Positions 1,555 through 36,349 of a DNA stretch of 64,000 nucleotides are shown piece after piece (the stretch's first letter is position 1; each line of letters starts with the position of its first letter). A program made the position numbers and the translations under genes. The notes under the pieces were generated by a model. The model was not told the DNA's origin, ran no database searches, and saw only the letters and a list, made by a program, of their open reading frames with translations. Source of the DNA: Burkholderia oklahomensis C6786 (GTDB lineage Bacteria > Pseudomonadota > Gammaproteobacteria > Burkholderiales > Burkholderiaceae); the NCBI RefSeq assembly GCF_000959365.1, contig NZ_CP009555.1:2232001-2296000 (forward strand), given 5' to 3'.

Positions 1555-2364
<810 letters not shown>

Positions 2365-2459
2365 TCACTGCCTACCCTAGCAATCACGCCATTTTTCGGG
2401 ACGCATGACGGCGTGTTGCGGTTGCGTGCATCGGATGCAACGTATGCGCCGCAGGCTCG

Positions 2460-3071
2460 TCAATGCTTCGCCGCGGCTGCGTACGCGAGATAGCGTTGGT
2501 GCAGTGCGGCGACTTCGGCTGCGAGTTCGTCGTGCGGCGCATCGTCGTTGACGATCACGTCGTCGGCGGCGGCAAGCCGTGCGTCGCGCGGCGCTTGTCG
2601 TGCGACGATCGCCTCCACCTGCTCGCGGCTGAAGCCGTTGCGGCGCATCACGCGCGCGATTTGCGTTTCGACGTCGCAATCGACGACGAGCACGCGGTCC
2701 ACACGCGCCTTCCACGTTCCCGACTCGACGAGGAGCGGCACGACGAAGACGACGTACGCGCCTTGTGCCGCGCTGGCCTCGCGCTCGGTCTCTTCGCGGA
2801 TCAGCGGATGGGTGATCGCTTCGAGTCGCTTGCGCGCGAATTCGTCGCTGAAGATCAGCGCGCGCATCTTCGCGCGATCGAGCGAACCGTCGGCTGCGAT
2901 GAACTCCGCGCCGAACTCGCGCGCGATGAGCGGCATCGCGAGGCCGCGCGGCGCGGTGATGCGGTGCGCGATCAGATCGGTATCGACGATCGATGCGCCG
3001 AGCTCGCCGAACAGATTCGCGACGGTCGTCTTGCCGCTGCCGATTCCGCCCGTCAATCCCACTGAAAACAT
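2460..3071 (-). CDS. coaE: dephospho-CoA kinase
   Basis: This enzyme phosphorylates dephospho-CoA at the 3' hydroxyl, the last step of coenzyme A synthesis. The P-loop [12 protein letters not shown] is at residues 5-16, and the protein has the usual length of about 200 residues (203). It starts three bases after the pilD stop, so it is the distal gene of the pilB-pilC-pilD-coaE unit. Confidence 0.95.
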
Positions 3072-3074
3072 AGG

Positions 3075-3986
3075 TCAGCCTCCGAGCAGCAGGTAGAACG
3101 GCGTGCCGAAAAAGAGGGTCGCCGCGCCGCCTGCCGCGAGGAACGGGCCGAACGGCAGCGGTTCCTCGAAGCGCATGCGGCCGCGCCAGGTCGCGACGAG
3201 ACCGATCGCCGCACCCGCGACGGCGGCGATCAGCACGATCTGCGGCAACGCTTCCCAGCCGAGCCACGCGCCGAGCGCGGCGAGGAGCTTCAGGTCGCCG
3301 TAACCGATCCCTTCGATTCCGCGCAGCAATTTGAACAGCCACAGAATGCACCAGAGGAACAGGTAGCCGGCGATTGCGCCGATCACCGCAGTGCGCAGGC
3401 TCGCGAACGTATCCCACAGATTGACGCACAGGCCCGCCCACAAGAGCGGCAGCGTCAGCGAATCGGGCAGGAAGCCGGTCTGCATGTCGATCGCGCTCAT
3501 GGCGAGGAGCGCCGCGCACAGGCCGAACGCGGCGAGCGCAGCGCCGCTCGGCCCGAAGAGCGCGAGCGCGCCGGCGGCGAGCGCGCCGCTCGCGAGTTCG
3601 ATGAGCGGATAGCGTGCGCCGATCGGTGCACGGCAGCGGCGGCAGCGGCCGCGCAACGCGATGTAGCTGAGGACCGGAATGTTCTCCCACGCGCGGAGCA
3701 CGTGGCCGCAGTGCGGGCACGCGCTGCGCGGCACGCAGAGGTTGTAGCGCGGCGGCAGGCCGTCGTCGGCGGGCGGCTCGTCCGTCGCTTCGGCGATTTC
3801 CGCGAGCCACGCGCGCTTCATCATGATCGGCAGCCGATGGACGACGACGTTGATGAAGCTGCCGACGACGAGGCCGAACACGATCGCGAACGCAAGCTGC
3901 ATCCCCGTGGGGAGCATCGCGAACGCGGCGAGCGGCCCGGCGGCCGCGTGCGCGGCCGGATCGGAAAGGAACGGATTGGGCGTCAT
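3075..3986 (-). CDS. pilD: prepilin leader peptidase/N-methyltransferase PilD
   Basis: PilD is a polytopic inner-membrane aspartic protease that cleaves type IV pilin and pseudopilin leaders and methylates the new N-terminus. Visible hallmarks, numbered from 3986, are GSFINVVVHRLP near the N-terminus, two zinc-finger Cys pairs (CPHC at 90-93, CRRC at 115-118), and the catalytic aspartates D167 (SAID) and D231 (GYGD), followed by hydrophobic helices. An in-frame ATG at 4001 is an alternative start, and neither has a clear Shine-Dalgarno sequence. It lies between pilC and coaE. Confidence 0.92.
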   Translation of the reverse strand: MTPNPFLSDPAAHAAAGPLAAFAMLPTGMQLAFAIVFGLVVGSFINVVVHRLPIMMKRAWLAEIAEATDEPPADDGLPPRYNLCVPRSACPHCGHVLRAWENIPVLSYIALRGRCRRCRAPIGARYPLIELASGALAAGALALFGPSGAALAAFGLCAALLAMSAIDMQTGFLPDSLTLPLLWAGLCVNLWDTFASLRTAVIGAIAGYLFLWCILWLFKLLRGIEGIGYGDLKLLAALGAWLGWEALPQIVLIAAVAGAAIGLVATWRGRMRFEEPLPFGPFLAAGGAATLFFGTPFYLLLGG

Positions 3987-5248: not shown

Positions 5249-6522
5249 CCAGCCTCCGTCGCGCCGAGTGCTTCGTCCAGGCTCGTCGTGCCGTCGCGCA
5301 CGCGTGCGAGCGCCGCGTCGCGCAAGCTCGTCATGCCTTCGGCGTGCGCCTGCCGCGCGAGTTCGGCGCTGCTCGCGCGTGCGACGATCAGGTTGCGTTG
5401 CTCGGCGGACAGCGGCATCACCTGGTGAATGCCGATACGTCCCCGATAGCCGATTCCGTGGCACGCGGCGCAGCCCGTCGCCGCATACGGGCGCCAGCCG
5501 GCGTCGAGCGAAGCGGCGTCGAGGCCCGCCGCGCGCAGCGCATCGGGCGATGCGTCCGATGGCGCGCGGCACGCGGCGCAGAGGCGGCGCACGAGACGCT
5601 GGGCCGTCACGAGTCGCAGCGCGGCAGCGAGGTTGTACGGCGCGACGCCGATGTCGAGCAGTCGAGCAACCGCCGCGGGCGCGTCGTTCGTATGCAGTGT
5701 CGACAGCACGAGGTGGCCCGTTTGCGCGGCCTTCAGCGCAACGTCGGCGGTTTCCGCGTCGCGTATCTCGCCGACCATGATGATGTCGGGATCCTGGCGC
5801 AGGAACGCGCGCAGCGCGACCGCGAAGGTCAGCCCCGCTTTCTCGCGCACGCCGACCTGATTGATCCCGTCGAGCTCGATTTCGGCCGGGTCTTCGACCG
5901 TGCAGACGTTGCGCGACACGTCGTTCAGCATTTGCAGGAAACAGTACAGCGACAGCGTCTTGCCGCTGCCTGTCGGTCCCGTGACGAGGACGAGACCGTG
6001 CGGCGCGCCGATCGCCGCCTCGACGCGGCGCGTCTGCGCGGCGTCGAAGCCGAGCGCGGCGAGCGACAGACCGGCGGGAAGCGTCTCGAGACGCCGCAGC
6101 ACGAGTTTCTCACCGTGCAGCGTCGGCAGCGAGCTGACCCGGTAGTCGCCCGCGTGCCCCGGCGCGAGTGCGAGCCGCAGCCGGCCGTCTTGCGGCACGC
6201 GACGCTCGGCGATGTCCATCCGCGCGAGCACCTTGATGCGCGTCACGCATGCGTCGCGCAGATGGGCGGGCGGCCGCGCGAATTCGTGCAGCACGCCGTC
6301 GATCCGCAGACGAACGCGCCAGCCCGATTCGCCTGGCTCGACGTGAATGTCGGACGCGTCGCGTTCATGCGCCGCGCGCAGCATGTCGGCGACGATGCCG
6401 ACCGCGGGCGCGTCGTCGGCGAGTTCGGCGGCGCGGGGACGGGGCGGGGCGGATGCCGCGGGCGCAAGCGGCGGCGCCGGCCATGCGGACGCAAAAGAGG
6501 GAGAAGAGGATGTTGCGGACAT
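5245..6522 (-). CDS. pilB: type IV pilus/type II secretion assembly ATPase (PilB/GspE), short form
   Basis: This hexameric ATPase powers pilin assembly. Visible motifs are Walker A GPTGSGKT (182-189), Walker B DPDIIMVGEIRD (about 244-255), the His box region LVLSTLHTND, and a tetracysteine zinc motif (C315, C318, C351, C354). At 425 residues it is much shorter than typical PilB/GspE proteins of 500-570, because an Ala/Pro-rich stretch of about 40 residues replaces the usual N-terminal domain. It begins the pilB-pilC-pilD-coaE cluster. Confidence 0.9.
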   Translation of the reverse strand: MSATSSSPSFASAWPAPPLAPAASAPPRPRAAELADDAPAVGIVADMLRAAHERDASDIHVEPGESGWRVRLRIDGVLHEFARPPAHLRDACVTRIKVLARMDIAERRVPQDGRLRLALAPGHAGDYRVSSLPTLHGEKLVLRRLETLPAGLSLAALGFDAAQTRRVEAAIGAPHGLVLVTGPTGSGKTLSLYCFLQMLNDVSRNVCTVEDPAEIELDGINQVGVREKAGLTFAVALRAFLRQDPDIIMVGEIRDAETADVALKAAQTGHLVLSTLHTNDAPAAVARLLDIGVAPYNLAAALRLVTAQRLVRRLCAACRAPSDASPDALRAAGLDAASLDAGWRPYAATGCAACHGIGYRGRIGIHQVMPLSAEQRNLIVARASSAELARQAHAEGMTSLRDAALARVRDGTTSLDEALGATEAG

Positions 6523-8071: not shown

Positions 8072-8078
8072 CTGCAAA

Positions 8079-8127
8079 TCTGGTCGGGGTGAGAGGATTC
8101 GAACCTCCGGCCTCTACGTCCCGAACG
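8079..8127. repeat. attL: 49-bp direct repeat, displaced 3' part of tRNA-Pro
   Basis: These 49 bases are identical to 36301-36349, which covers the 3' half of the intact tRNA-Pro gene including the CCA end. The match stops at the anticodon stem, where the sequence becomes unrelated. This copy lacks the tRNA 5' half. The arrangement is the footprint of a tyrosine integrase that targets a tRNA 3' end. Confidence 0.95.
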
Positions 8128-8919: not shown

Positions 8920-8970
8920 TGCCTGCTTCGGCAGGCGCCCGGGCAATGCGGGAGACGCATCGGGCCATCC

Positions 8971-9637
8971 CCGCTGACGCGGGAGAATGCTGCAAACCAC
9001 CTTTCCGGCGGCGACAACGTGACCTGCGTAACAGCCAGGCCTGCCTTTCGGGCAGTCCCCGCTGACGCGGGGCGAGGTACTGCGGTACTGCGCTCATCGC
9101 TGAGCAATTCCCGCTGACGCGGGAGAGTGCTGCAAACCACCTTTCCGGCGGTGATAACGCAACCTGCGTAACAGCCAGGCCTGCCTTTCGGGCAATCCCC
9201 GCTGACGCGGGGCGAGGTACTGCGGTACTGCGCTCATCGCTGAGCAATTCCCGCTGACGCGGGAGAGTGCTGCAAACCACCTTTCCGGCGGTGATAACGC
9301 AACCTGCGTAACAGCCAGGCCTGCCTTTCGGGCAATCCCCGCTGACGCGGGGCGAGGTACTGCGGTACTGCGCTCATCGCTGAGCAATTCCCGCTGACGC
9401 GGGAGAGTGCTGCAAACCACCTTTCCGGCGGTGATAACGCAACCTGCGTAACAGCCAGGCCTGCCTTTCGGGCAATCCCCGCTGACGCGGGGCGAGGTAC
9501 TGCGGTACTGCGCTCATCGCTGAGCAATTCCCGCTGACGCGGGAGAGTGCTGCAAACCACCTTTCCGGCGGTGATAACTCGACCTGCGTAGCAACCAGGT
9601 CTGCCCCTCGGGCAATTCCCGCTGACGCGAGAGTGCG
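8971..9637. repeat. 140-bp tandem repeat array, about 4.7 copies
   Basis: Copies begin at 8971, 9111, 9251, 9391 and 9531. The three copies from 9111 to 9530 are identical, the first has several substitutions, and the last diverges after about 45 bases and ends near 9637. Each unit carries two hairpin-forming cores related to CCCGCTGACGCGGG, spaced alternately 88 and 52 bases. The open frames across it (SRVSGN/PASAG-type peptides) reflect the repeat and are not credible genes. Confidence 0.9.
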
Positions 9638-18641: not shown

Positions 18642-18665
18642 GCTCAATTTCGGAGAGTGCCCGGC

Positions 18666-18968
18666 ATGGCAATCTCTCCGAATACTGCGGCCGCCGTACG
18701 TGCGCGACTCGCTGCGAACCTGCGTGACCAACGGCAGCAGCGTGGGCTGTCGCAGGAGAAGCTCGCCGATGAGGCGGGCCTGCACCGGACGTATGTCAGC
18801 CAGGTCGAGCGGACCATCGTGAACATTTCATTGGACAACCTCACGAAGTTGGCCGATGCGCTCGAGACTGACGTTCACTTATTGCTGAAGCCGCGTTCCG
18901 CCGAGACTGAGGGTGGCTCAGTTAAGCCCCAAAAAGCTATGACCCCACGGAAGCGGGGTGCCCGCTGA
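18666..18968 (+). CDS. XRE-family transcriptional regulator (controller-like)
   Basis: This 100-residue protein is nearly all a lambda-repressor-type helix-turn-helix domain (residues 14-73: LRDQRQQRGLSQEKLADEAG, then LHRTYVSQVERTIVNIS). It resembles the small controller proteins of restriction systems. I chose the ATG at 18666, since GGAG sits about ten bases upstream, over a GTG at 18657. The tail past residue 73 falls inside a duplicated 182-bp segment. It probably binds the 15-bp repeats upstream. Confidence 0.8.
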   Translation: MAISPNTAAAVRARLAANLRDQRQQRGLSQEKLADEAGLHRTYVSQVERTIVNISLDNLTKLADALETDVHLLLKPRSAETEGGSVKPQKAMTPRKRGAR

Positions 18969-19235
18969 CGGCGGCCACCTATCCGCTGCTATCTGATATG
19001 GGTTTTGTCTCAGGTGCGACGGGACGAAGTGGGCTGAAGCTCTTGAGATTGTTGTTCACCCACTGCTGAAGCCACGTCCCGTGGAGACTGAGGGCGCCTC
19101 AGTCAAGCCCCAAAAAAAATTATGACCGCACGGAAGCGGAGTGCCCGCCGTCAGCGGGCACTTATCCGCTGCTATCTGATATGGGTTTTGTCTCAGATGC
19201 GACGGGCTACGTTGGCGGTGTGGCAGATAATTAAG
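18872..19235. repeat. 182-bp imperfect tandem duplication
   Basis: The 3' end of the XRE gene and its downstream region (about 18872-19053) recur at about 19054-19235. For example, ATCCGCTGCTATCTGATATG starts at 18981 and again at 19163. The second copy still encodes a version of the regulator's C-terminal tail but has no gene start. It contains a hairpin GTGCCCGC-CGTCA-GCGGGCAC. Substitutions suggest an old duplication. Confidence 0.75.
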
Positions 19236-20017: not shown

Positions 20018-20899
20018 CTAGCATAGCTCGAACTGGCCGGCGGTGGCTTTGAGCCGGCGATAGTACGTGGCGCGGCTGATTCCCGCTGTGACCCACGGCT
20101 GACCGTTCCGGGTTGTGGTGCGCGGTCGGCCGCCGCGCTGTCCGCGTGCTGCCTGGATGGCCGAGAATGCCTCGTCGGTGAAGCGCCGCCAGGTCCACCT
20201 GGCGATGCTGCGGGCGATGGATTTGACTTCGCTATACGGCAATGGCACCTCGAACGTATTCAGGCTCTCGGCCTTTCCTAATAAGGCCGTAGCCCATTCC
20301 GTCGGGGACGCGCCGTTGCGCTTGTATTCGCGAGTCCACTGATAAGCCCATGTGCGCACTTCATCGAAAAGCGTGCAGTTTCTGCCGAGTCCGACTAGCG
20401 GGGCGTCGAGCCGGACAGGGCTCTTTCGAAGATTGACGTATTCTGCCAGTTCGCCAAGTTCGTAAAGGCGATGATGCCAGATGGTCTGCCAGTGCGAGTG
20501 AAACGGATTCTTGGCTATAAGGTGACTGTATCCGAGGTCAGACGGAAGCTTGGCGCAAAAGGCGGCCTGCACCGCCGCCGCATATCGGAGAGGCGCATCC
20601 CTCGCGGCGGCGCTTTTCACGATTGGCGTGGTCAGCCCGTAGAAAAGGTGCGCGTGTCTGTTGACGCGATTGGTTACTGCTATCGTGGGGGCGGGCAGAT
20701 TTCTCAACTCCCAGAGGTAGGCGGCGTCTTTCTTGTCGACGTCGAATACGAGCCACGTGATTTCGAGCGGTGCGTTCGGTTGAATGAACCGATGGGTGAG
20801 CGCCGTGGCTGCCGGTCGAACCACCAGGCCTTTGTCGAGCTCGTTCGTGCAATATGGACGGTGCGGCAGGCGGTCCAGGAAAATGGCGGATGTATCCAT
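20018..20899 (-). CDS. replication initiation/replicase family protein
   Basis: The 293-residue protein matches the replicase family of plasmids and integrative elements: HLFYGLTTPIVKSAAARDAPLRYAAAVQ, LGYSHLIAKNPFHSHWQTIW and GRNCTLFDEVRTWAYQ are typical. It has a C-terminal primase-like helical segment and a basic tail with RATYYRRL. It lies 100 bases downstream of the RepA-type helicase, so the two probably form one replication module. A short hairpin (CGGGGC-TATC-GCCCCG on the plus strand) spans the region just before its start and may affect its translation. Confidence 0.82.
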   Translation of the reverse strand: MDTSAIFLDRLPHRPYCTNELDKGLVVRPAATALTHRFIQPNAPLEITWLVFDVDKKDAAYLWELRNLPAPTIAVTNRVNRHAHLFYGLTTPIVKSAAARDAPLRYAAAVQAAFCAKLPSDLGYSHLIAKNPFHSHWQTIWHHRLYELGELAEYVNLRKSPVRLDAPLVGLGRNCTLFDEVRTWAYQWTREYKRNGASPTEWATALLGKAESLNTFEVPLPYSEVKSIARSIARWTWRRFTDEAFSAIQAARGQRGGRPRTTTRNGQPWVTAGISRATYYRRLKATAGQFELC

Positions 20900-21001
20900 C
20901 GGGGCTATCGCCCCGGCAGTGCGTTATTTGATTGTCTGTTGCTGTCCTGGTCCTACGAAGTCGCCCGAAGTATGTCCTTGGCACGAGCCGGGGCGTCTCC
21001 T

Positions 21002-21862
21002 TTACTTTGAGAGGGCGCGAGCGTCCCGTTTAACGGGGTTCATGACCGCGACGGGCGCGGCGGAGTCGAGCATGAGCCGACCTCCAGGGTGCCGCTTTAG
21101 CCAGCAGCGTGGGCGCGGGGGAAGGTAATTTGTCTTGGCGAAGTCAAGCGCGACGTAAAGCGCGCGCTCTGACTCCGAGAGATGCCGGCTTTGGGCTGTC
21201 TTCTCGTCCATTCGCGACAGGTTGACTTGCCAGCGCGCACCGTCGACAAGAGCGGACGAACCGCGCGCTGCGTGCTGTGCGCTGGCGTCAGAGGCGGCGG
21301 ATGAGCGGTTTGAATGGTGAAGTGCAAGGACAGCGGCGCCCGTAGCCGCTGCGAGCTGTTCCATGGCGACTACGAGCGCTGTCATCAGGCCGCTGTCGTT
21401 TTCGTCGCCATTGTGCATGCGCCGCAAAGGGTCCACGATGATGAGGCGGGCGCCGCCGCCAATTGCCTTCAATTCAGAAAATAAGCTGGTTGGCTTTCCG
21501 TCATCGAGCAGAAGGCAGGATTGACCGGCCATCGGAAGCAGAACGAGGTTGTCGTATAGACGCGGGTCGCTTTGTTCGTCGTGGCGAAGGTGATTGCGCA
21601 GGCGCTCGGCGAGCAGGCGCGGGCATTCCTCACCGGCCAGTACAACGACGCGACCCGGCTTTTGCGCAGGGAACAGGCCGCCCGCGACTGTCCTGCCAAG
21701 CGCGAGTGAAAGACCCATGTCGAGGGCAAGGTGTGATTTGCCGGTCGCGCCTGGCGCGACCAGCAAGCCAAGCGTCTCGGGAGGCAGGCCGGGAAGGACG
21801 AAATCGAGTGGTGGCAGTGCGGCGGTAAGCGCCCAGTTGAGGTCGAGCGGCGTCAGGCTCAT
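21002..21862 (-). CDS. RepA-like hexameric replicative helicase (AAA/RecA fold)
   Basis: The 286-residue protein has a Walker A motif APGATGKS (36-43), a Walker B strand RLIIVDPLRR (D144) and the downstream LALHHSNR motif of the RSF1010 RepA/RadA-like helicases. In IncQ-type plasmids such a protein is the 5'-3' helicase for replication. The promoter region holds AACACCGTATAGG (21886-21898), 24 bases before the start codon and also found before the integrase gene. The next gene downstream is the replicase. Confidence 0.85.
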   Translation of the reverse strand: MSLTPLDLNWALTAALPPLDFVLPGLPPETLGLLVAPGATGKSHLALDMGLSLALGRTVAGGLFPAQKPGRVVVLAGEECPRLLAERLRNHLRHDEQSDPRLYDNLVLLPMAGQSCLLLDDGKPTSLFSELKAIGGGARLIIVDPLRRMHNGDENDSGLMTALVVAMEQLAAATGAAVLALHHSNRSSAASDASAQHAARGSSALVDGARWQVNLSRMDEKTAQSRHLSESERALYVALDFAKTNYLPPRPRCWLKRHPGGRLMLDSAAPVAVMNPVKRDARALSK

Positions 21863-21928: not shown

Positions 21929-22130
21929 CAATTTGCGCGGACAGGTGACTCAGGTTCGGAGTGAATTGGCCGTTATGCCGTATCGGACATCGAGTAATCC
22001 CGCCGATTGCTGGAGAGGGGCGTTTGGGTTCCGCTATACTTCGTGCCGCCCGGTGTCGGCCTGTCTGGTATGTATGCCCGACTGTCGAAAGAGATGAGCC
22101 GTCCTGCCGACACCGCACCGAGGGGACAGA

Positions 22131-22589
22131 ATGCGAACTATTGGAATACGCGTTGCGCCAAAACAGGTGACCTTCGTAGTCTACGACGCGTCAGAATCGG
22201 AAATCCTCAACGTCGAGGAAGTCACGGTTCCCAAAGCCATGGATACGCCGGAGCAGCTGAAGTTCGTGCGTAGCACTATCCTTGATGTTATCCGTGAGTA
22301 CGACGTGACACGAGCTGGCATCCGGGTCAGTGAAGGAAATGCGCAGAATCCGTCCATTGAGCGAATCGAGCTCGAAGGCGTAATCCAGGAGGCGTTTGCA
22401 AGCAGCGACGTCGAAGGCTACTTTTGCGGCCGGATTGCAAATATTGCTGCCAAACTGGGCATGCCGCGCACGCAGCTTAAGTCCCATCTTGACGGGGATG
22501 CGGACTATCCGGCGGTAGAAAACTGGATGAAGCACAGCAAGGAAGAGCGTGAGGCTATCGTTGCAGCGATTGGGGCTGCACATGCTTAA
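22131..22589 (+). CDS. RNase H-fold (RuvC/DUF3010-like) protein in kinase operon
   Basis: The 152-residue protein begins with a strand-turn-strand (TIGIRVAPKQVTFVVYDASE) and continues with a helix and the strand AGIRVSEGN, then a long helix, as in RuvC-like RNase H folds. The acidic residues used for catalysis in RuvC are not preserved (GIR for GID, IRV for IEE), so it may be a binding or inactive version. The fold call is inference from pattern. The ATG at 22131 has the Shine-Dalgarno GAGGGGA. The gene overlaps the kinase gene by 8 bases, a strong sign of a joint function. Confidence 0.6.
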   Translation: MRTIGIRVAPKQVTFVVYDASESEILNVEEVTVPKAMDTPEQLKFVRSTILDVIREYDVTRAGIRVSEGNAQNPSIERIELEGVIQEAFASSDVEGYFCGRIANIAAKLGMPRTQLKSHLDGDADYPAVENWMKHSKEEREAIVAAIGAAHA

Positions 22590-23610
22590 GGCGGATACGC
22601 AGGCACAGTTGTGCTTCAAGCTCGGTGACGAGATTGGTTCCGAAGGCAAGAACTCGACCGTTTTTCGCGCGCACGATATTCAAATGGATGCCCAGCTCGC
22701 AATAAAGCGAATCACGAAGTCGTCGATTAAAGATGCGGCAGATTACTATCGTGAGGCGAGCATCCTCTACATGGGGGACCACGCCAACGTGGTGCCAATC
22801 CATTACGCGTGCGAGGACACGGACCATATCTACCTCGCGATGCCGTATTACCCGAACGGCTCGCTCAATGGGCTGCTCGAACAACGGTTCCTGACTGTCC
22901 GGGAAATCGTCAGGTACGGTATCCAGTTTCTCAGCGGGTTGCACAACATTCATTCGAAGAAGCTGATTCACTTCGATATCAAGCCCGACAACATTCTGCT
23001 ATCGAGCCGCAACGAAGCGCTTCTGTCGGATTTCGGACTCGCGCAGCGGATGCGAGTGGACGGTAAGGCCGAGCCTCCGGTCAGTTACGTGAAGAACATT
23101 CCGCCAGAGGCGCTGGTCGAGTCGGAACATTCGGTCGCATTCGATATCTACCAGGTTGGTCTTACGCTATACAGAATGTGCTGTGGCAATGACGCCTTTT
23201 ACGAACCGTTGAAGCAGTTCAAGTCGTTTGCGGACTTTTCCGCCGCAGTGCAGAAGGGAGCTTTTCCGGACCGGTCGACGTTTCCGGCGCACATCCCCAA
23301 TCCACTTCGAACGCTTGTGAAGAAGTGCCTCAGCGTTGATGTCAATGCGCGATATGGCGCAATCATCGAGGTATCCAACGCCCTAGGGAGTATCGAAGGC
23401 AACGAACTGGACTGGCAGTACGAGGTCTACCCGGACGGCGGCCGGGAATGGACCAAGTCGGTCGATGGCCGGGAGTTCACATTGACAGTGACGGGTAGCG
23501 GAGAGTCGACTGCAACCAGACGCACGGAGAAGACGGTATCGAAGCTCAAAGATTTTTGTGCGGCGAAAATCGATGAAAAGACCATACGGAAGTTCTTGAA
23601 GGAGTACTGA
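22582..23610 (+). CDS. eukaryotic-like Ser/Thr protein kinase with a C-terminal extension
   Basis: A complete kinase domain is seen: glycine-rich loop GSEGKNSTV (19-27), K42 in AIKRI, a helix-C glutamate E58, catalytic loop HFDIKPDN (130-137) and DFG at 150-152. HFD replaces HRD, so it is a non-RD kinase that may not need activation-loop phosphorylation. Residues 275-342 form an extra domain rich in charged and aromatic residues (LDWQYEVYPDGGREW), which could sense or bind a partner. There is no membrane helix. The start at 22582 overlaps the upstream gene. Kinases of this sort occur in phage-defence systems, and the island context fits that. Confidence 0.85.
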   Translation: MLKADTQAQLCFKLGDEIGSEGKNSTVFRAHDIQMDAQLAIKRITKSSIKDAADYYREASILYMGDHANVVPIHYACEDTDHIYLAMPYYPNGSLNGLLEQRFLTVREIVRYGIQFLSGLHNIHSKKLIHFDIKPDNILLSSRNEALLSDFGLAQRMRVDGKAEPPVSYVKNIPPEALVESEHSVAFDIYQVGLTLYRMCCGNDAFYEPLKQFKSFADFSAAVQKGAFPDRSTFPAHIPNPLRTLVKKCLSVDVNARYGAIIEVSNALGSIEGNELDWQYEVYPDGGREWTKSVDGREFTLTVTGSGESTATRRTEKTVSKLKDFCAAKIDEKTIRKFLKEY

Positions 23611-23793
23611 ATGACTACTGTCAAGAATCAAAGGTCGTCCTATCTCACTCGGGCGAAACTGGCGTCTCCGCAGACGCCGTCCGCTGCAAAAGTGGTCGCT
23701 CCCCGCGTTGAAGAGCGTCCGCATCGTGCGATTGAGTTCATCGATGCGGCCGGTTACGTGCACTGGAAGTTGCCCGCCAAACGGGCAAGCTGA
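23611..23793 (+). CDS. small third gene of the kinase operon (60 residues)
   Basis: The ATG at 23611 follows the kinase stop directly (TGAATG), so it is coupled to the kinase gene, and GGAG lies 8-10 bases upstream. The N-terminal half is Ser/Thr/Lys-rich and probably disordered. The C-terminal half (RAIEFIDAAGYVHWKLP) looks like a small beta hairpin. No family is recognised. It could be a kinase substrate, adaptor or antidote. Confidence 0.55.
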   Translation: MTTVKNQRSSYLTRAKLASPQTPSAAKVVAPRVEERPHRAIEFIDAAGYVHWKLPAKRAS

Positions 23794-23928
23794 AGGAAAG
23801 TACCCGAGACAAGCACCGCGCAGCCGCCTGGCCGCGTGGTGCCGCGAATTATCGAGAACCACGCCCTTCGTCGACGTTAGTCCCCAGCACCGAACCGGGC
23901 GTTTTTCCCGTCTTAATGGCTCGTTTCC

Positions 23929-24297
23929 TTACTTCTTGTCCTTCCTTCTAAGGCTGATGTAGGCGGCCTTCATCATTTCCTCCAGTGCGTCCTTTGAGCT
24001 ATCGCTGAGGTTGGGGTCTGCTCGAAGATGAGCAGTTGCCAGCGCCAGCGGCTCGCCCTTAGGCGCTTTCGCGGCCAGCTTCACAAAGGTGGAGAGGTCT
24101 AGTCCGGCCCACGTTGCCAGTACGGCGAGGCTGGCGCCGTCGGGCTTACGGCCTTTCGCCATCCTCGTCAAAGTGGTCGGACTGACTCCCGTTTCCTGAC
24201 TGGCCTGTTTCCACGTAATTTCGCGCGCGTCCACCGTGGCCGCCAAAGCACGATAGAACGCATCGTTATCGAACGACCGTTCGTTTTCTTCCGTCAT
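23929..24297 (-). CDS. XRE-family regulator of the ubiquitin-like operon
   Basis: The 122-residue protein has a helix-turn-helix (ITWKQASQETGVSPTTLTRM) in its first half and a helical C-terminus ending in a basic tail. The ATG at 24297 is preceded by GAGGATG. A longer frame to 24345 would read through one of the operators. It is divergent from the Ubl operon at 24416. Two copies of a near-perfect palindrome lie in the shared promoter region, so autoregulation and control of the operon are likely. Confidence 0.8.
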   Translation of the reverse strand: MTEENERSFDNDAFYRALAATVDAREITWKQASQETGVSPTTLTRMAKGRKPDGASLAVLATWAGLDLSTFVKLAAKAPKGEPLALATAHLRADPNLSDSSKDALEEMMKAAYISLRRKDKK

Positions 24298-24310
24298 GAC
24301 ATCCTCGAGA

Positions 24311-24382
24311 AATTGCTCAAAAGCAATTGACACGCCAAAGAGCAAGTCATATGATTGGTCCTGAAATTGCTCAAGAGCAATT
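24311..24382. promoter_or_regulatory. two 18-bp palindromic operators
   Basis: AATTGCTCAAAAGCAATT (24311-24328) and AATTGCTCAAGAGCAATT (24365-24382) are repeated palindromes 54 bases apart, with a half site (AGAGCAA) between them. They fill the gap between the divergent XRE regulator and the ubiquitin-like operon. Confidence 0.75.
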
Positions 24383-24415
24383 TATAACAGTTTAGCAACT
24401 TCGCACGGAGTTACC

Positions 24416-24874
24416 ATGAAACCTGCAGGTACGGTAGGGAAGAGCGACGAATTCCAGGGGGTGTCCCCGGCTATGGGTGGCGACGTCCACCGACAGTCTT
24501 CTGACTCCGGCGTCGTTCGCGAACTTGAGATTCGGGCTGAGGTGCCGCTCCCGGATGGCGGCGTCGAAATCATCGACGTAAAAATCGAGGAGGCGGAAGC
24601 GCCGAAGCATGCCGGGCACCAGCATCACAAGCATCCGCACGAAGGTGAACACGCGCACCTGGTCGAGGTCACCGTTGACAATCGCAAGGTGCGAGTGAAA
24701 GAAGGCGCCTACGTGGTCGCAGTGTTCAAGGCGGCGGTCGGCGTTGCGGCCGACCGTCTGCTCGACCGTGTGCTGGGGCCAGGAAAGTTTGAAGAGTTGG
24801 CGGATGACCAGACCATTCACGTGCATGCCGGAGAGGTCTTCGTCAGCCATGTCAAGCAGGGCAGCTCGTCATGA
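24416..24874 (+). CDS. ubiquitin-like protein (multi-ubiquitin/Ubl type) with His-rich linker
   Basis: Residues about 82-146 form a beta-grasp segment (LVEVTVDNRKVRVKEGAYVV, ADDQTIHVHAGEVFVSHV) like the multi-ubiquitin domain proteins found with bacterial E1, E2 and JAB genes. Residues 1-60 are mostly linker-like, and 65-81 contain eight histidines. The C-terminus is HVKQG-SSS and not a free Gly-Gly. A peptidase, presumably the adjacent JAB, may have to expose G149 before conjugation. The stop overlaps the E2-like gene (ATGA at 24871-24874). Confidence 0.75.
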   Translation: MKPAGTVGKSDEFQGVSPAMGGDVHRQSSDSGVVRELEIRAEVPLPDGGVEIIDVKIEEAEAPKHAGHQHHKHPHEGEHAHLVEVTVDNRKVRVKEGAYVVAVFKAAVGVAADRLLDRVLGPGKFEELADDQTIHVHAGEVFVSHVKQGSSS

Positions 24875-25224
24875 GCCTCGAACCTGCACGCGTGGCGGCC
24901 CTTCAAGCCGTCTATCCCGACGCCAGGGTCGTGGTCGACGGCACAAAGAAGTTCGTGATGTTGCCGGCCCTGCATATCGAGGTCGGAGAGCGCGAATATA
25001 TCCTCGATGCGCTTTTATTGCCGGCGGGCGGGCCGGGGGGATATCCCACCCGCCTGTATCTGACACAGCAAATCGCCGAGCGGCACATGATTCGTGACAA
25101 GGCTGCAAACTGGACGTGCGAAATCATCGCTGGAAAGACCTGGTACACCTGGTCCTGGACTGGGGTGTCGTCAGACCTCCCGCTGATGGATATGCTGTTG
25201 GCTCACCTGCGAGCGCTGCGATGA
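24871..25224 (+). CDS. E2-like protein (prokaryotic E2 family E type)
   Basis: The 117-residue protein resembles the Prok-E2_E family: a strand FVMLPALHIEV, then LDALLLPAGGPGGYPTRLYL and a C-terminal WYTWSWTGVSSDLPLMDMLLAHL. It contains a single cysteine, C83 (NWTCEII), which is the only candidate for a thioester with the Ubl. Whether this family carries out transfer as classical E2 does is not settled. It is coupled to both neighbours by ATGA overlaps. Confidence 0.7.
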   Translation: MSLEPARVAALQAVYPDARVVVDGTKKFVMLPALHIEVGEREYILDALLLPAGGPGGYPTRLYLTQQIAERHMIRDKAANWTCEIIAGKTWYTWSWTGVSSDLPLMDMLLAHLRALR

Positions 25225-25859
25225 CGGCCAACATCACCATTCCGGAGGAACTGCTCAAACAGATTCACGAAGATTTGCACCGGACCCATCCATTTGCTGG
25301 GGAGCGGGTCGGCTTTATCACTTGTCGTTCGTCACGCGTCAACGACGCTTGGCAACTGACCGCGATGCAATACGAGGCGGTTGCCGACGGCGAGTACATC
25401 GACGACCCCACCGTAGGTGCGTCAGTTTCCGGAGCGGCCTTTCGGCGACTGATGATGCGCGCTCACGCGGAGCCGCTGAGCGTCTTTCACGTGCATCGAC
25501 ACGACCATCGGGGCACGCCGAATTTCAGCCCAGTTGACCGCAGGGAGAATGCGCGCTTTGTCCCTGACTTTCTCACCGTTCGTCCAGAGCTACCGCACGG
25601 CGCCGTCGTGCTGAGTTATGACGATGCGCGCGCGCATGTATGGGACCCGCTTGAATCCGAACAACCGACTGCTGCACGGCTCTGCATCGCTGCGGTTTCG
25701 AACAAACAAGGAGTACATCATGAGCAATCGACACAGCAGGCAGAGCTTTCTGGGTCAGGGGTCGGACGAGCGCCTGCAGGCGGCCTCCGCCGCCGTCATT
25801 GGGCTGTGCGGTGGTGGCTCGCATGTGTCGCAGCAGTTGGCGCATATTGGCATCGGTAA
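25221..25859 (+). CDS. JAB/JAMM metallopeptidase of the Ubl system
   Basis: The protein has the JAMM elements: E28 in GERVGF and a histidine cluster followed by S103-x2-D106 in FHVHRHDHRGTPNFSPVD. In related systems this enzyme processes the Ubl precursor or removes it from targets. The domain seems complete by about residue 160. The remaining 50 residues (to 212) are read in a 140-base overlap with the E1 gene and look non-native, so the tail is odd. The start at 25221 overlaps the E2 stop. Confidence 0.8.
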   Translation: MTANITIPEELLKQIHEDLHRTHPFAGERVGFITCRSSRVNDAWQLTAMQYEAVADGEYIDDPTVGASVSGAAFRRLMMRAHAEPLSVFHVHRHDHRGTPNFSPVDRRENARFVPDFLTVRPELPHGAVVLSYDDARAHVWDPLESEQPTAARLCIAAVSNKQGVHHEQSTQQAELSGSGVGRAPAGGLRRRHWAVRWWLACVAAVGAYWHR

Positions 25860-26514
25860 CCTTCTACTCATCGACCCCGACCGTGCCGACGACACGAATA
25901 CAAACCGCATGGTGGGGCTGACGGAGCAGGAGGCGGACGACGAAGAGTACAAGGTGCATGTTGTCGAGCGCAAACTGCGACCGGTCAACAGTAAGGTCGC
26001 CGTTCGTGGTTTCGCCAGGCCGTGGCAGGAAGTGCCGGACGAGCTGAAGCGATGCGACGTAATTTTCGGGTGCGTCGACTCCATAACGGCTCGCGAACAA
26101 CTCGAGCGTTTCGCGAGACGCTATGCCATTCCGTACATCGACGTCGGGATGGATGTTCACGATGAGGAAGGCCGCTATTTCATAACCGGACAGGTCATCA
26201 CTTCGTTGCCCTCTCGGCCATGCATGCGCTGCATGGGATTCGTCACCGAGGCGAAACTGGCGGCCGAGCAAGCGCGGTACGGCGCCGCCGGCGGCCGGCC
26301 GCAGGTCGTGTGGCCGAACGGCGTACTCGCCTCGACGTCGGTAGGCGTGTTCATGTCGCTGTATACGCCTTGGAACGCCGAAACGACGCCGGCAATCTAT
26401 ATCGAGTACGACGGGAACCGCAACGTTCTTGCCCCGAGCAACCGGCTCCAGTATCTCGAGGGCGTCCCGTGCGAACACTTTGTCGGCACCGAAGGTGTAG
26501 GCGACATCTTCTGA
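25720..26514 (+). CDS. E1-like ubiquitin-activating enzyme (ThiF family)
   Basis: The 264-residue protein has an N-terminal SRQSFLG segment, the nucleotide loop GLCGGGSH (28-35), the ATP/Mg aspartate region IDPDRADDTNTNR (51-63) and D120 (FGCVDS). A later CMRC (168-171) and VPC251 provide cysteines. It would adenylate the C-terminus of the Ubl and pass it to the E2-like protein. The start at 25720 has AAGGAG upstream and lies inside the end of the JAB open frame. It is the last gene of the tightly overlapped part of the operon. Confidence 0.85.
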   Translation: MSNRHSRQSFLGQGSDERLQAASAAVIGLCGGGSHVSQQLAHIGIGNLLLIDPDRADDTNTNRMVGLTEQEADDEEYKVHVVERKLRPVNSKVAVRGFARPWQEVPDELKRCDVIFGCVDSITAREQLERFARRYAIPYIDVGMDVHDEEGRYFITGQVITSLPSRPCMRCMGFVTEAKLAAEQARYGAAGGRPQVVWPNGVLASTSVGVFMSLYTPWNAETTPAIYIEYDGNRNVLAPSNRLQYLEGVPCEHFVGTEGVGDIF

Positions 26515-26605
26515 GTTGCAGACGGGAGGGGGTGCTGGCACTTGCGCTTTTGGTTCTCAACTCCCAGTTCATTCGTACGCCTGGACTGGTCTCTTATCGC
26601 ATTGA

Positions 26606-28408: not shown

Positions 28409-29995
28409 ATGAATCAGGACCTCAAGAAAACCCTTTGGGCCGCCGCCGACAAGCTGCGCTCCTCAATGGATGCCGCCGAATACAAGCACATCGTGCTCGG
28501 CCTCATTTTTCTCAAATACATTTCGGATGCGTTCGACGAGCGCCGCGTACAGCTTGCCGCCGCGTTCGCTGACGGGAACGACGACCTTTATCTGCCCGAC
28601 GCGGCCGACCATGCAGAGGCGCTCGAAGAGCGCGATTACTACACCATGGCCAACGTCTTCTGGGTGCCGGCATCGGCTCGCTGGGAGACGCTGCGGGCGC
28701 AGGCGAAACAGGCTGACATCGGCGCGCGCATCGATGCCGCGCTGGAAGCCATTGAGGCTGACAATCCACGGCTGAAGGGCATTCTCGACAAGCGTTTCGG
28801 ACGTACTCAGCTCGAACCGGGCCGCCTTGGTGAACTGGTGGACCTGATTTCCACCGTCGGGTTCGGCGAGGGCCACCGTGCAAAAGACCTGCTCGGCGAG
28901 GTGTACGAGTATTTTCTGGGCCAGTTCGCCACCGCCGAGGGCAAGAAGGGCGGCCAGTTCTACACGCCGGCGTCCGTGGTGAAGGTGCTGGTCGAGGTTC
29001 TTGCGCCGCACCAGGGACGCGTCTATGACCCGTGCTGCGGTTCGGGCGGCATGTTCGTACAGAGTGAAAAGTTCATCGAGGCGCACGGCGGCAAGGCGGA
29101 CGATATCAGTATTTACGGCCAGGAGGCGAATCCGACGACCTGGCGGCTGGTGGCAATGAACCTGGCCATCCGGGGCTTTGCGGCTGACCTCGGCAAGGAG
29201 CCGGCGGACACCTTTCACCGTGACCAACACCCGGACCTGCGCGCCGACTATGTGCTTGCGAATCCGCCATTCAACATTAGCGACTGGGGCGGGGAACGGC
29301 TGACCGAAGACCGCCGCTGGTCATATGGGTCGCCGCCGGCGGCCAATGCGAATTACGCCTGGTTGCAGCACATCGTCCACCACCTGAGCCCGCGCGGGCA
29401 GGCCGGCGTGGTGCTGGCCAACGGCAGCATGAGCACCAACCAGAACAGCGAGGGCGATATCCGCCGTGCGATGGTCGACGCCGACGTGGTGGACGTGATG
29501 GTGGCGCTACCGCCGCAACTTTTCTTCAACACTACAATTCCGGCGTGTTTGTGGTTCTTGGCCAAGGACAAGAGCGGCGGGGCGGTGCCAGGGGGCAAAC
29601 GCGGGCGCGACCGGCGCAACGAAATGCTGTTTATTGACGCGCGCAAGCTCGGTCGGATGGAAACCCGCGTGGTTCGCGTGTTCGACGACGAAGACATTGC
29701 GCGTATTGCAGCGACTGTGCACCGCTGGCGGGCTGATGGCGAGGACAGTGCCGACGAACTGTATACCGATGTACCGGGCTTCTGCCGGGCCGTGAAGTTG
29801 GCCGAGATTGCTGAGCATGGGCATGTGCTGACGCCTGGTCGCTACGTCGGAGCCGAGGAAGCCGAGAATGATGACGAGGCGTTCAACGAGAAGATGGAGC
29901 GCTTGACCTCGGTGCTCGCCGAGCAGATGGCGAAGGGCACGGAGCTTGATGCGGTGATTCGGGAAAAGCTCGGAGGGATGGGTTATGCGGTCTGA
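28409..29995 (+). CDS. hsdM: type I restriction-modification methyltransferase subunit
   Basis: HsdM transfers methyl groups to adenine N6 within the site read by HsdS. The 528-residue protein has the HsdM N-terminal helical domain, motif [11 protein letters not shown] and motif IV NPPF (near residue 285). The stop lies inside the first codons of hsdS (an 11-base overlap from 29985), so the subunits are coupled. A gap of about 260 bases upstream probably contains the promoter, but I see no clear boxes. Confidence 0.95.
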
Positions 29996-31321
29996 GTTGC
30001 AGACTGATACAGACGGTGAAAGCTCTTGGCCGACTGTTGCACTTAAGTCTATCGCTATAAAGATTCGCTCCGGTGCGACTCCAAAAGGAGGCGCGGAAAG
30101 CTATCTCGAATCGAGGGCACGGTATGCGTTGGTCCGTAGCCAAAACGTCTTTGACCATCGTTTCGATGAAGCAGGTCTCGCGAACATCAGCGACCAGCAA
30201 GCCAAAGATTTGGCGGGTGCCGAGCTGCAGGATGGTGATGTTCTGTTGAATATCACCGGCGACGGGGTCACGTTCGGACGTGGGTGCCTTGTACCGTCAC
30301 ACGTGCTTCCGGCTTGTGTGAACCAGCACGTTATGCTGATTCGCACAGACAGTACGCTCTGTCATTCGGGGTACCTTGCGGCTTGGCTCGCTTTGCAAGA
30401 CTCGAAGGCCTATATCGAATCGTTCAACGCAGGAGGCAGTCGCCGAGCAATAACGAAGGGGCACATAGAATCATTTAATGTTCCGCTTCCGCCTCTCGAT
30501 ATACAACAGGGCATAGCTGACCTCGCGGCGGCCTTAAATGGGCGCATTGAGCTCCTTCGCCAAACCAACGCCACCCTCGAATCTATTGCACAGGCGCTCT
30601 TCAAGAGCTGGTTCATCGATTTCGACCCGGTACGGGCAAAAGTAGGAGGTCGCGAGCCCGAATGCATGGACGCGGCTGTGGCGAAGCTGTTTCCTGCGGA
30701 ATTTCATGAATCAGCGATGGGGCGGATTCCGAAGGGATGGAAAGTTGGTGACGTGTATGAGGTAGCTCAGGTGACCTACGGAGCTCCGTTCGCATCCAAG
30801 CTTTTCAACTCTGAAGGCGACGGACTACCGCTTGTCCGTATTCGGGACCTGAAAGATGAAGCGCCAGGCGTCTGGACACCAGAGGTTCACCCCAAGGGCT
30901 ACAGGCTTCGGCCCGGAGACATTGTCGTGGGCATGGATGGCGAGTTCCGTGCGTACCTTTGGGGCGGCGAGGAGGCATGGATGAATCAGCGAATTTGCGT
31001 GTTCAAACCGGTGAACGGTCACTCGGCTGCGTTTGTGCGGTGTGCCATAGCTGCGCCGTTGGCTCATATCGAGGCGACTGAAACGGCAACGACCGTTATC
31101 CATCTCGGGAAGGGAGACATTGACCGGTTCAGAATTGTGGTCCCGCCACCCGATGTCGCATCCGCATTTTCTGCTATATCCGAGCCGCTGTACGAGCGAA
31201 TCGTCGCGGGAAAGCAGAACGCACGAACACTCTCCAAGCTGCGCGACGCGCTTCTTCCTCGCCTCATCTCCGGCAAGCTTCGCTCCGCAGAAGCCGAGGC
31301 GCAATTGAACGAGACGTTCGC

Positions 31322-31325
<4 letters not shown>
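29985..31325 (+). CDS. hsdS: type I restriction-modification specificity subunit
   Basis: HsdS holds two target-recognition domains separated by conserved helices. Both are visible: the first ends at [27 protein letters not shown], the second at [10 protein letters not shown] followed by [22 protein letters not shown]. At 446 residues it is full length. The two recognition domains differ, so an asymmetric bipartite target is expected. The stop overlaps the hsdR GTG start by four bases. Confidence 0.93.
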
Positions 31326-34450
<3,125 letters not shown>

Positions 34451-34459
<9 letters not shown>

Positions 34460-34494
34460 CCCGGCGGGTTCGGGCGAGATTCCGGTCAGGCAAC
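34451..34494. terminator. bidirectional terminator between hsdR and integrase genes
   Basis: GTTGCCTGAC at 34451-34460 with its GG-ending arm pairs with CCGGTCAGGCAAC (34482-34494), with one bulged C. The stops of both convergent genes lie in the arms. It is well placed to end transcription from both sides. Confidence 0.6.
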
Positions 34495-36138
34495 CCTGCG
34501 GGTGAAGTCAATATGGACGACGTTCCCGATGGCGCTGGTCGGCATGGCTGGCGCAGGCCGAGGTGGCTGCTCCATCTGTGCGCCGCCCGTGTTGTCGCCG
34601 TCGAACTGACCCAGTGTCGCAGCTGCACCCTCGGCGATGACTTCCTGCAGCGTCACGCCGGCGCCTTTTTTGAGACGCCGGATGCCACGATGTGCAACAT
34701 CTTCAGGCTTATCGCCAAAAGCCGCGTCGAGGCGTTTTGCCAGGCTCTGCGCACAGAGATGCGCGTAACGAAGCAGCATGCGGGTGTCGCGGTGGCCGCT
34801 GAATGCCTGAAGGTCTACGAGCGAAAATCCGCCGGGCGTGTTGCTTCCCGCTTCGGCGACCCGGGAAATGGCTTCATGCCGGAGGTCGTGGATGCGCAGG
34901 CCATCTTCCTTTCCGTCCAGGCCTGCCTTCTTGCAAATCCGCGACCACGCCTTGCGCAACCCGTCGACGCCAATCGGGAAGACCAGCTTGCCGTTTCGTG
35001 GCAGATTCCGGAGCATCTCGACAAGGTCGAGACGGAGAGGGAGTTTGCGGGGACGGCCGTTTTTCGTTTCGGGCAGAAACGCCGTCTGGGCGTCGAGGTC
35101 CACGTTGGCCCATGTCAGGGTAAGGGTTTCGCTGCGCCGCGCGCCGGTCATCAGCTGAAAGTTGATGAAGGTTTCCAGCTGAGGAACATGCTTGAAGGAC
35201 TGTTCGGCCTCGCTCGCATGCAGCTTGCGTGCTTCCTTGATGGTCAGCTTGCGTCGATAGGTGGTGTGGGCTCGCTCCGCCTCGATGCGCACGTCAGACA
35301 TCAGCTCCTGCAGGCGGGCTTCGATGGACCATCTGCGGTCTTCTTCGCGCGCGGCGGCAAGCAGTCGGGTTTCCTCGTCACCCTTCAGACGGCGGTCGCG
35401 CTCGTTGTAGTAGCGCGGACGGCGCACGCCGTCCATCGGGTTCTTTGCGACACGAATGCGCCAGGTTTCAATGGCGATATTACAGACGGCCGAGAAGATG
35501 TCGATTTCCCGGTCGACCGTGGCGGGTGACACTTCCTGGCAGCGCTCATCGATGTAGTCGGTGAAATCGTCCGGGATGACGGCAGCAAAGGACTTGCGGA
35601 TGAACCTGCTGGTTTCGGAGGGCTTGCTCACACGGGTACCGGTTGCCTTCCGGAATTTCATGTCCCTGACCTTGGGGTGGGGGTTCGGGTGGGCGGCCAC
35701 TATCGCCGCGAGGTCCTGCCGGGGCAGCCCGGCGTCCTCCAGCAGCATGTTGATTTTGTAGGCCTCGACCTCGAAACTCTTGTGGCGGGGGGCCTCCTTG
35801 TGGAGGTACCGAATCAGCAGGTCGGCAAGCGTATGCTGCTTGGCGCTGGCGTAGTCGGTGAACAGGTCATACGCCTGCTCGCTTTCGAGTTTGTTCTTGA
35901 TACGGATGGCCTCGGCTTCGCTCCGGGCCGTGAAGGACTGGTTCTTGTGGCCGACGCTGCGTGAGCGGATGACGTAGTAGTCGTCCAGACTCGTGAGCTT
36001 GGGCTTGTAGCCCTGGTCGCGCAGCTTCTGGAGGTAAGCCTGGATGGCCGGGTCGGCCGTGCGGGCGAAGGATTTGGTGAGGTCGTCGTGCTTCTGGACG
36101 GTGACCTGGATTCGAGAGCGGTTCTCGATGGATGCCAT
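34486..36138 (-). CDS. tyrosine-type site-specific integrase of the island
   Basis: The 550-residue protein has the catalytic set of tyrosine recombinases: Arg in MTGARRSETL, HDLRHEAISR (His-x-x-Arg) and GHRDTRMLLRYAHL with the nucleophilic tyrosine. The N-terminal third should hold the arm-binding and core-binding domains and is longer than in most phage integrases. It lies beside the intact tRNA-Pro, between arm-like repeats and hsdR, and should catalyse integration at the tRNA 3' end. Its promoter region shares 13 bases with that of the helicase gene. Confidence 0.93.
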   Translation of the reverse strand: MASIENRSRIQVTVQKHDDLTKSFARTADPAIQAYLQKLRDQGYKPKLTSLDDYYVIRSRSVGHKNQSFTARSEAEAIRIKNKLESEQAYDLFTDYASAKQHTLADLLIRYLHKEAPRHKSFEVEAYKINMLLEDAGLPRQDLAAIVAAHPNPHPKVRDMKFRKATGTRVSKPSETSRFIRKSFAAVIPDDFTDYIDERCQEVSPATVDREIDIFSAVCNIAIETWRIRVAKNPMDGVRRPRYYNERDRRLKGDEETRLLAAAREEDRRWSIEARLQELMSDVRIEAERAHTTYRRKLTIKEARKLHASEAEQSFKHVPQLETFINFQLMTGARRSETLTLTWANVDLDAQTAFLPETKNGRPRKLPLRLDLVEMLRNLPRNGKLVFPIGVDGLRKAWSRICKKAGLDGKEDGLRIHDLRHEAISRVAEAGSNTPGGFSLVDLQAFSGHRDTRMLLRYAHLCAQSLAKRLDAAFGDKPEDVAHRGIRRLKKGAGVTLQEVIAEGAAATLGQFDGDNTGGAQMEQPPRPAPAMPTSAIGNVVHIDFTRRVA

Positions 36139-36288: not shown

Positions 36289-36300
36289 CGTAAGGAAAAT

Positions 36301-36349
36301 TCTGGTCGGGGTGAGAGGATTCGAACCTCCGGCCTCTACGTCCCGAACG
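36301..36349. repeat. attR: 49-bp direct repeat within tRNA-Pro
   Basis: This is identical to attL at 8079-8127. It covers the CCA end, T arm and variable region up to the anticodon stem. The island brought this copy and restored a full tRNA. Confidence 0.95.

Follow-up and report, generated by a model that had tools for sequence, protein, structure and literature searches.

Introduction

Bacterial operons that encode a ubiquitin-like protein (Ubl), an E2-like protein, a JAB metalloprotease and an E1 adenylating enzyme are known as the Bub system, as BilABCD and as type 6e of an earlier classification. Here we compare with them such an operon at positions 24416–26514 of a 64,000-nucleotide stretch of Burkholderia oklahomensis C6786 (NZ_CP009555.1, 2,232,001–2,296,000), hereafter the window. 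Titles in the Protein Data Bank (PDB) name BubA of Citrobacter as the Ubl, BubB as the E2-like protein and BubCD as a longer protein whose E1 domain lies behind residue 175. We infer, from the D104A mutant of BubCD and from JAB–E1 fusions in three of the loci compared (L015, L016 and L018), that the JAB forms its front half. BilABCD has the same set of activities and uses cysteine enzymes. Type 6e combines a polyUbl of one to three Ub-like domains, an E2/RWD-like protein without the cysteine, and a JAB that in most such operons is fused to the E1 (Iyer 2006). Control by a helix–turn–helix (HTH) protein has been described as CapH+CapP, and 219 of 544 Bub operons are reported to adjoin CapW or CapH+CapP (PMC13373217). 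The accessible part of PMC12203941 contains nothing on Bub.

The window operon likewise consists of Ub-like domain, E2-like protein lacking the cysteine, JAB and E1, and we consider it likely to be a Bub-type (Iyer 6e) operon for Ubl conjugation that does without the usual catalytic cysteines. As a Bub-type operon it is unusual in two respects: a one-domain, histidine-rich Ubl, and JAB and E1 genes that are split yet overlap. Its CapH-like repressor has no CapP that we could recognise.

An invariant serine in the E2-like protein

The strongest single result concerns the E2-like protein (24871–25224, + strand, 117 aa), and is negative for one residue and positive for another. The initial annotation had pointed to Cys83 as the one cysteine of this protein, and conservation led us to reject it as the nucleophile. 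Among 122 aligned E2s, Cys83 is present in six: those of the window and LB400 (P0004), P0001–P0003 and the distant protein P0108. The other 116 most often have Gln, Val or Glu at this position; it is Glu in G023, a genome whose E1 is 64% identical to that of the window. No cysteine of any kind occurs in 65 of the 122 rows, and the conserved catalytic cysteine of a canonical E2 (UBC) is absent from the alignment. Cys83 is therefore lineage-specific and unlikely to be the nucleophile. Ser95, within the motif W91-x-x-S95-[WFY]-x-x-[VI], is by comparison invariant in all 122 rows and also in eight distant E2s. It is the invariant nucleophile candidate, and the pattern of conservation indicates that this carrier enzyme probably uses a serine rather than the classical cysteine.

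The predicted structure has an E2/UBC-type fold, with BubB as the top Foldseek match. Against Prok-E2_E (PF14462) the protein scored 16.2 bits (E 0.0089), below the curated cut-off of 25, so it is not a member by that measure. Compared by profile against six Prok-E2_E proteins, it gave an E-value of 1.1e-6, a figure that applies to that single comparison, and the invariant serines were aligned. The assignment to the ‘E family’ made in the initial annotation is thus upheld in a broad sense.

E1, JAB and Ubl

The E1 (25720–26514, + strand, 264 aa) has a ThiF fold and falls into the ThiF family (Pfam, E 1.2e-25). Residues R7, D52, N60, N62, R63, K78 and D120, which from MoeB we take to form the ATP site, are invariant in 9 of 9 rows. 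Its only cysteines are at 30, 112, 118, 168, 171 and 251, leaving none at 172–250, and the MoeB cysteine position has no Cys in 15 E1 rows, the MoeB-like row aside. C168xxC171 and C251 are kept in all 12 stand-alone E1s, and one of the three fused E1s (L018) lacks the CxxC; C168xxC171 together with C251xH253 is probably a zinc site. In a tree of E1s the window, LB400 and G023 form a clade with support of 100/98; this clade is the only part of the tree that we use, since long branches meet and the deep forks are open.

A canonical, BilABCD-like thioester pathway with Cys83 as the E2 nucleophile could draw on the few sequences listed above that do carry Cys83, on the shared set of activities, and on the name Ubl-BilA given to one multi-ubiquitin relative in the PDB. 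It is set against the Glu of G023 and the non-Cys residue in 116 of the 122 rows, the many cysteine-free E2s, and an E1 that has no crossover-loop cysteine. Bil has its catalytic cysteines in both E2 and E1, whereas the window operon has no conserved catalytic-site cysteine, and we regard this pathway as highly improbable.

For the E1, the best match among PDB sequences was BubCD, in the adenylation domain only, ahead of ThiF and MoeB, which argues for kinship with BubD, the E1 part of BubCD. The same search bears on a sulfur-carrier or metabolic pathway of the ThiF/ThiS kind that would not conjugate proteins. The ThiF fold, the beta-grasp Ubl and the appearance of MoeB and ThiF among the matches are what such a pathway would predict, but the operon also holds E2-like and JAB genes, BubCD outranks both ThiF and MoeB, the Ubl tail ends in SS rather than GG, and the surrounding island carries restriction genes, so that we give this explanation very little credence.

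The JAB (25221–25859, + strand, 212 aa), BubC-like by position, had no Pfam match. The JAMM pattern residues E28, H90, H92, S103 and D106 are invariant in eight aligned rows.

The Ubl (24416–24874, + strand, 152 aa) is BubA-like. In the AlphaFold2 model a single beta-grasp at about residues 80–149 is confident and residues 1–79 are mostly of low confidence, with eight histidines within residues 65–81, as the initial annotation had described. The Ubls of LB400 and G023 likewise consist of a His-rich arm followed by one beta-grasp; the total number of histidines is 12 in the window Ubl, 10 in LB400 and 20 in G023. The multi-ubiquitin type first proposed is also supported: the top eight Foldseek rows are multi-ubiquitin proteins, with BubA(155–229) at rank 11, and a search of the PDB with the family profile led to chains of multi-ubiquitin proteins. 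The window Ubl by itself gave no match to PF14452 in a Pfam scan. Alphaproteobacterial relatives with annotated ends are 234–237 aa long, and the one that was scanned matches Multi_ubiq. The window protein ends in G-S-S-S; among its best 120 relatives listed of 413 found, all 120 end in SS and 118 in GxSS.

A proposed mechanism and its weak points

Taken together, these features suggest the following scheme. The E1 would adenylate the Ubl C-terminus, as its intact ThiF-type ATP site implies. Because a conserved cysteine is missing both from the E1 crossover loop and from the E2-like protein, the activated Ubl might then pass to Ser95 as an oxyester, or the E2-like protein might hold it in place for the target to attack directly. 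The Ubl would thereby become attached to target proteins, and the JAB, given its JAMM residues, would trim the G-x-S-S tail and/or remove the Ubl again. A noncanonical Bub mechanism with oxyesters has reportedly been described before, and we make no claim of priority for a serine mechanism. With an invariant serine in the E2 fold, an E1 without the usual cysteine and a one-domain Ubl, the four genes would offer a minimal system in which to ask whether ubiquitin-type transfer can run on oxyesters.

Several observations weigh against this scheme. R61, W81, W91 and H112 of the E2-like protein are as invariant as Ser95, and the placing of Ser95 after the last strand, with a Trp shared by 113 of the 122 rows following 10 residues on, is itself an inference. 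The BubB match of the E2-like model has an E-value of 0.028 and no Foldseek match reached 0.001; the E2 profiles found no relative among PDB sequences, so kinship with BubB rests on fold. The JAB profile found none there either, and kinship with BubC accordingly rests on gene position and residues. None of the Foldseek matches of the Ubl model fell below E 0.001. The Ubl-BilA name on a multi-ubiquitin relative shows that the border between Bil and Bub is not clean, and phage protection by Bub operons is described as not demonstrated (PMC13373217). Finally, such E2s have been taken as catalytically inactive (Iyer 2006), a reading that would make Ser95 a structural residue.

That last point leads to a rival in which the E2-like protein acts as a scaffold of the RWD/UEV kind, with no catalytic role, and the E1 hands adenylated Ubl straight to targets. 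UEV and RWD domains do occur among the E2 fold matches, and the HPN motif was not seen in the E2-like protein. The invariance of the serine across the 122 rows and the eight distant E2s argues against a scaffold, weakly, since other residues are equally invariant. We consider a scaffold unlikely, and prefer the cysteine-independent Bub-type pathway.

Gene order, overlap and distribution

The open reading frames confirm the annotated order Ubl–E2–JAB–E1 beside a divergent XRE gene, an order that looks like A-B-C-D of the named Bub system; the suggestion that the type might be undescribed is therefore withdrawn, and the surprise is limited accordingly. The likeness to Bub extends to the four activities, the E1 nearest BubCD, the E2 fold nearest BubB, a Ubl fold near multi-ubiquitin proteins and BubA, and the divergently oriented HTH repressor gene that many Bub operons have. 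It differs in having JAB and E1 as separate genes, in the single beta-grasp behind a His-rich arm, in that no CapP was found beside the repressor, and in that DUF6527 was not matched in the two open reading frames (ORFs) 3′ of the E1. DUF6527 accompanies Bub-like operons in L037, L039 and L040. With type 6e the operon shares its composition and the missing E2 cysteine, but its JAB is unfused.

The ATGA overlaps noted earlier hold for the Ubl/E2 and E2/JAB junctions but not for JAB/E1, which overlap by 140 bp (25720–25859). In the E1 frame, LB400 departs from the window at 7 of 46 third codon positions within the overlap, against 75 of 218 in the part behind (Fisher p 0.013); for first and second positions the counts are 9 of 94 and 24 of 436. 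For this single pair of sequences, the pattern suggests that both frames may be read across the overlap. The G023 half of the test was dropped, as the region behind the overlap seems misaligned.

LB400 carries the same genes, its DNA matching as a single block (22118–26551, 81.8% identity) with both its start and its end near gene borders. The order Ubl–E2–JAB–E1 is found in 10 of the 11 close loci with flanks read, namely the window, LB400, G023 and eight plasmid loci (H1–H7 and H10 out of 132 matched plasmid records); L014, whose contig begins just before the E1, was left out of this count. The exception among the plasmids is from Spirosoma, where only the E1, adjoining a transposase, is annotated. 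E1 relatives are rare, with one in 121 near genomes (E 1e-30; G023) and, at 1e-40, one in 398 family genomes (G023 again) and three in 398 phylum genomes. The E1 profile found no confirmed relative in viral contigs. There was no near DNA match on plasmids, distant matches covering only part of the E1, and neither PADLOC nor NCBIfam lists a family for Ubl, E2 or JAB.

The divergent XRE gene, a putative repressor

The XRE gene (23929–24297, − strand, 122 aa, with the start picked at 24297 behind GAGGA) encodes a protein that falls slightly below the cut-off for HTH_3 (E 2.9e-4). The intergenic region contains two putative operators, Operator 1 at 24309–24328 (palindrome core AATTGCTCAAAAGCAATT at 24311–24328) and Operator 2 at 24363–24382 (core AATTGCTCAAGAGCAATT at 24365–24382). 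Searching for the palindrome AATTGCTCNNNAGCAATT with up to two mismatches gave four strand matches in the window, corresponding to these two sites and no other, where 0.11 were expected. Between them lies a sigma-70-like promoter, TTGACA-17-TATGAT (24327–24355, + strand, 11/12 matches; one found versus 0.2 in shuffles), with Operator 1 reaching two bases into the −35 box and Operator 2 immediately downstream of the −10 box. LB400 has a promoter with identical hexamers and spacing and two ATTGC-N6-GCAAT sites.

For the XRE protein, 24 plasmid records gave a match, the best 12 listed at 45–47%, and no phage record did. Five loci of XRE relatives were fetched: in four (Rhizobium sp. T1473, R. gallicum, Chroococcidiopsis and Synechocystis pSYSX) the gene is transcribed away from a multi-ubiquitin operon, and in one it lies beside a TIR gene. 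ATTGC-N6-GCAAT occurs in the intergenic region of three (L037, L039 and L040). Because of its divergent position and these relatives, we regard the XRE protein, by position and association, as a putative CapH-like repressor, which bound to the two palindromes flanking the promoter would hold off transcription.

The dedicated XRE control that had been suggested thus gains from the palindromes, but CapH+CapP being known it is not undescribed. As in CapH+CapP, a small HTH gene points away from an operon of immune type and comes with operator-like palindromes; the difference is that no ImmA/IrrE (CapP) gene stands beside the window XRE. Nor was one found on the island, where a scan for HExxH in frames of at least 90 codons (8–36 kb) gave an M48 peptidase and incidental matches only. 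Three of the five XRE relatives are followed by an annotated ImmA/IrrE gene; the two Rhizobium ones (L037 and L040) lack it and are followed by a protein without a Pfam match. The locus does not resemble CapK+CapS (GHKL kinase, STAS-wHTH) either, the neighbouring kinase being PF00069 and the XRE HTH_3-like.

Among ten operon loci the divergent regulator is an HTH protein with ImmA/IrrE in five (G023 by PF06114; L007, L008, L009 and L012 by annotation) and XRE alone in two (window and LB400); L006 has another arrangement and L013 was not determined. Since the HTH proteins of those five resemble the window XRE weakly or not at all, more than one kind of HTH is in use. In the same position, L010 (Bosea, 2209–3305) carries an Xre/MbcA/ParS and RES pair of toxin–antitoxin type. 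The repressor without recognisable CapP and the one-domain His-rich Ubl may be the less known aspects of the system. The lack of a recognisable CapP beside a CapH-like repressor whose operators are clear raises the question of how such operons are switched on.

The neighbouring kinase module

Upstream, within the block common to LB400, are a gene for a 152-aa protein (22131–22589, + strand), one for a 353-aa Ser/Thr protein kinase (22549–23610, + strand; PF00069, 2.9e-45; PADLOC mad6-like, 5.6e-53) and a 60-aa ORF (23611–23793, + strand) with a similar ORF in LB400 DNA. In the stretches read, the 152-aa/kinase pair occurs without a recognisable Ubl operon in four of seven viral loci, three of five plasmid records and G293. 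We therefore do not count the kinase among the genes of the operon; it remains a neighbour, whose module possibly serves phage exclusion. All five plasmid records with the kinase also carry the 152-aa gene, and in L031 (Mesorhizobium plasmid, 5319–5459) a short annotated DUF6527 piece adjoins the module. No match to the kinase was found in the 14 kb read of G023.

The kinase module stands at the place of CapP, and window and LB400 combine XRE and kinase with no such peptidase beside them, where G023 has an HTH protein and a PF06114 peptidase. One could imagine a Ubl pathway without catalytic cysteines whose repressor, lacking a peptidase partner, is freed by phosphorylation, and in which a His-rich, perhaps metal-binding Ubl arm takes the place of further beta-grasps. 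The two Rhizobium loci with a related XRE also lack the peptidase and have no kinase annotated in the stretches read, which lowers the probability of this idea; we think it quite improbable.

The island

The operon lies on a 28.2-kb integrative island bracketed by 52-bp direct repeats (98%) of the tRNA-Pro(CGG) 3′ end, at 8076–8127 and 36298–36349, with a phage-type integrase at 34486–36138 and a G+C content mostly below that outside. Type I restriction-modification genes hsdM, hsdS and hsdR (Pfam; 28409–34459) follow downstream of the operon, and this setting suggests a putative stress-induced phage defence. Replicase/PriCT and AAA_25 genes at 20018–21862 suggest that the island may be able to replicate or be plasmid-derived. 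A 183-bp duplication (18843–19206) spans the end of a second small HTH gene (18657–18968), and just inside the left island border a 140-bp unit is repeated in tandem, in 4.7 copies with 97% matches (8970–9629).
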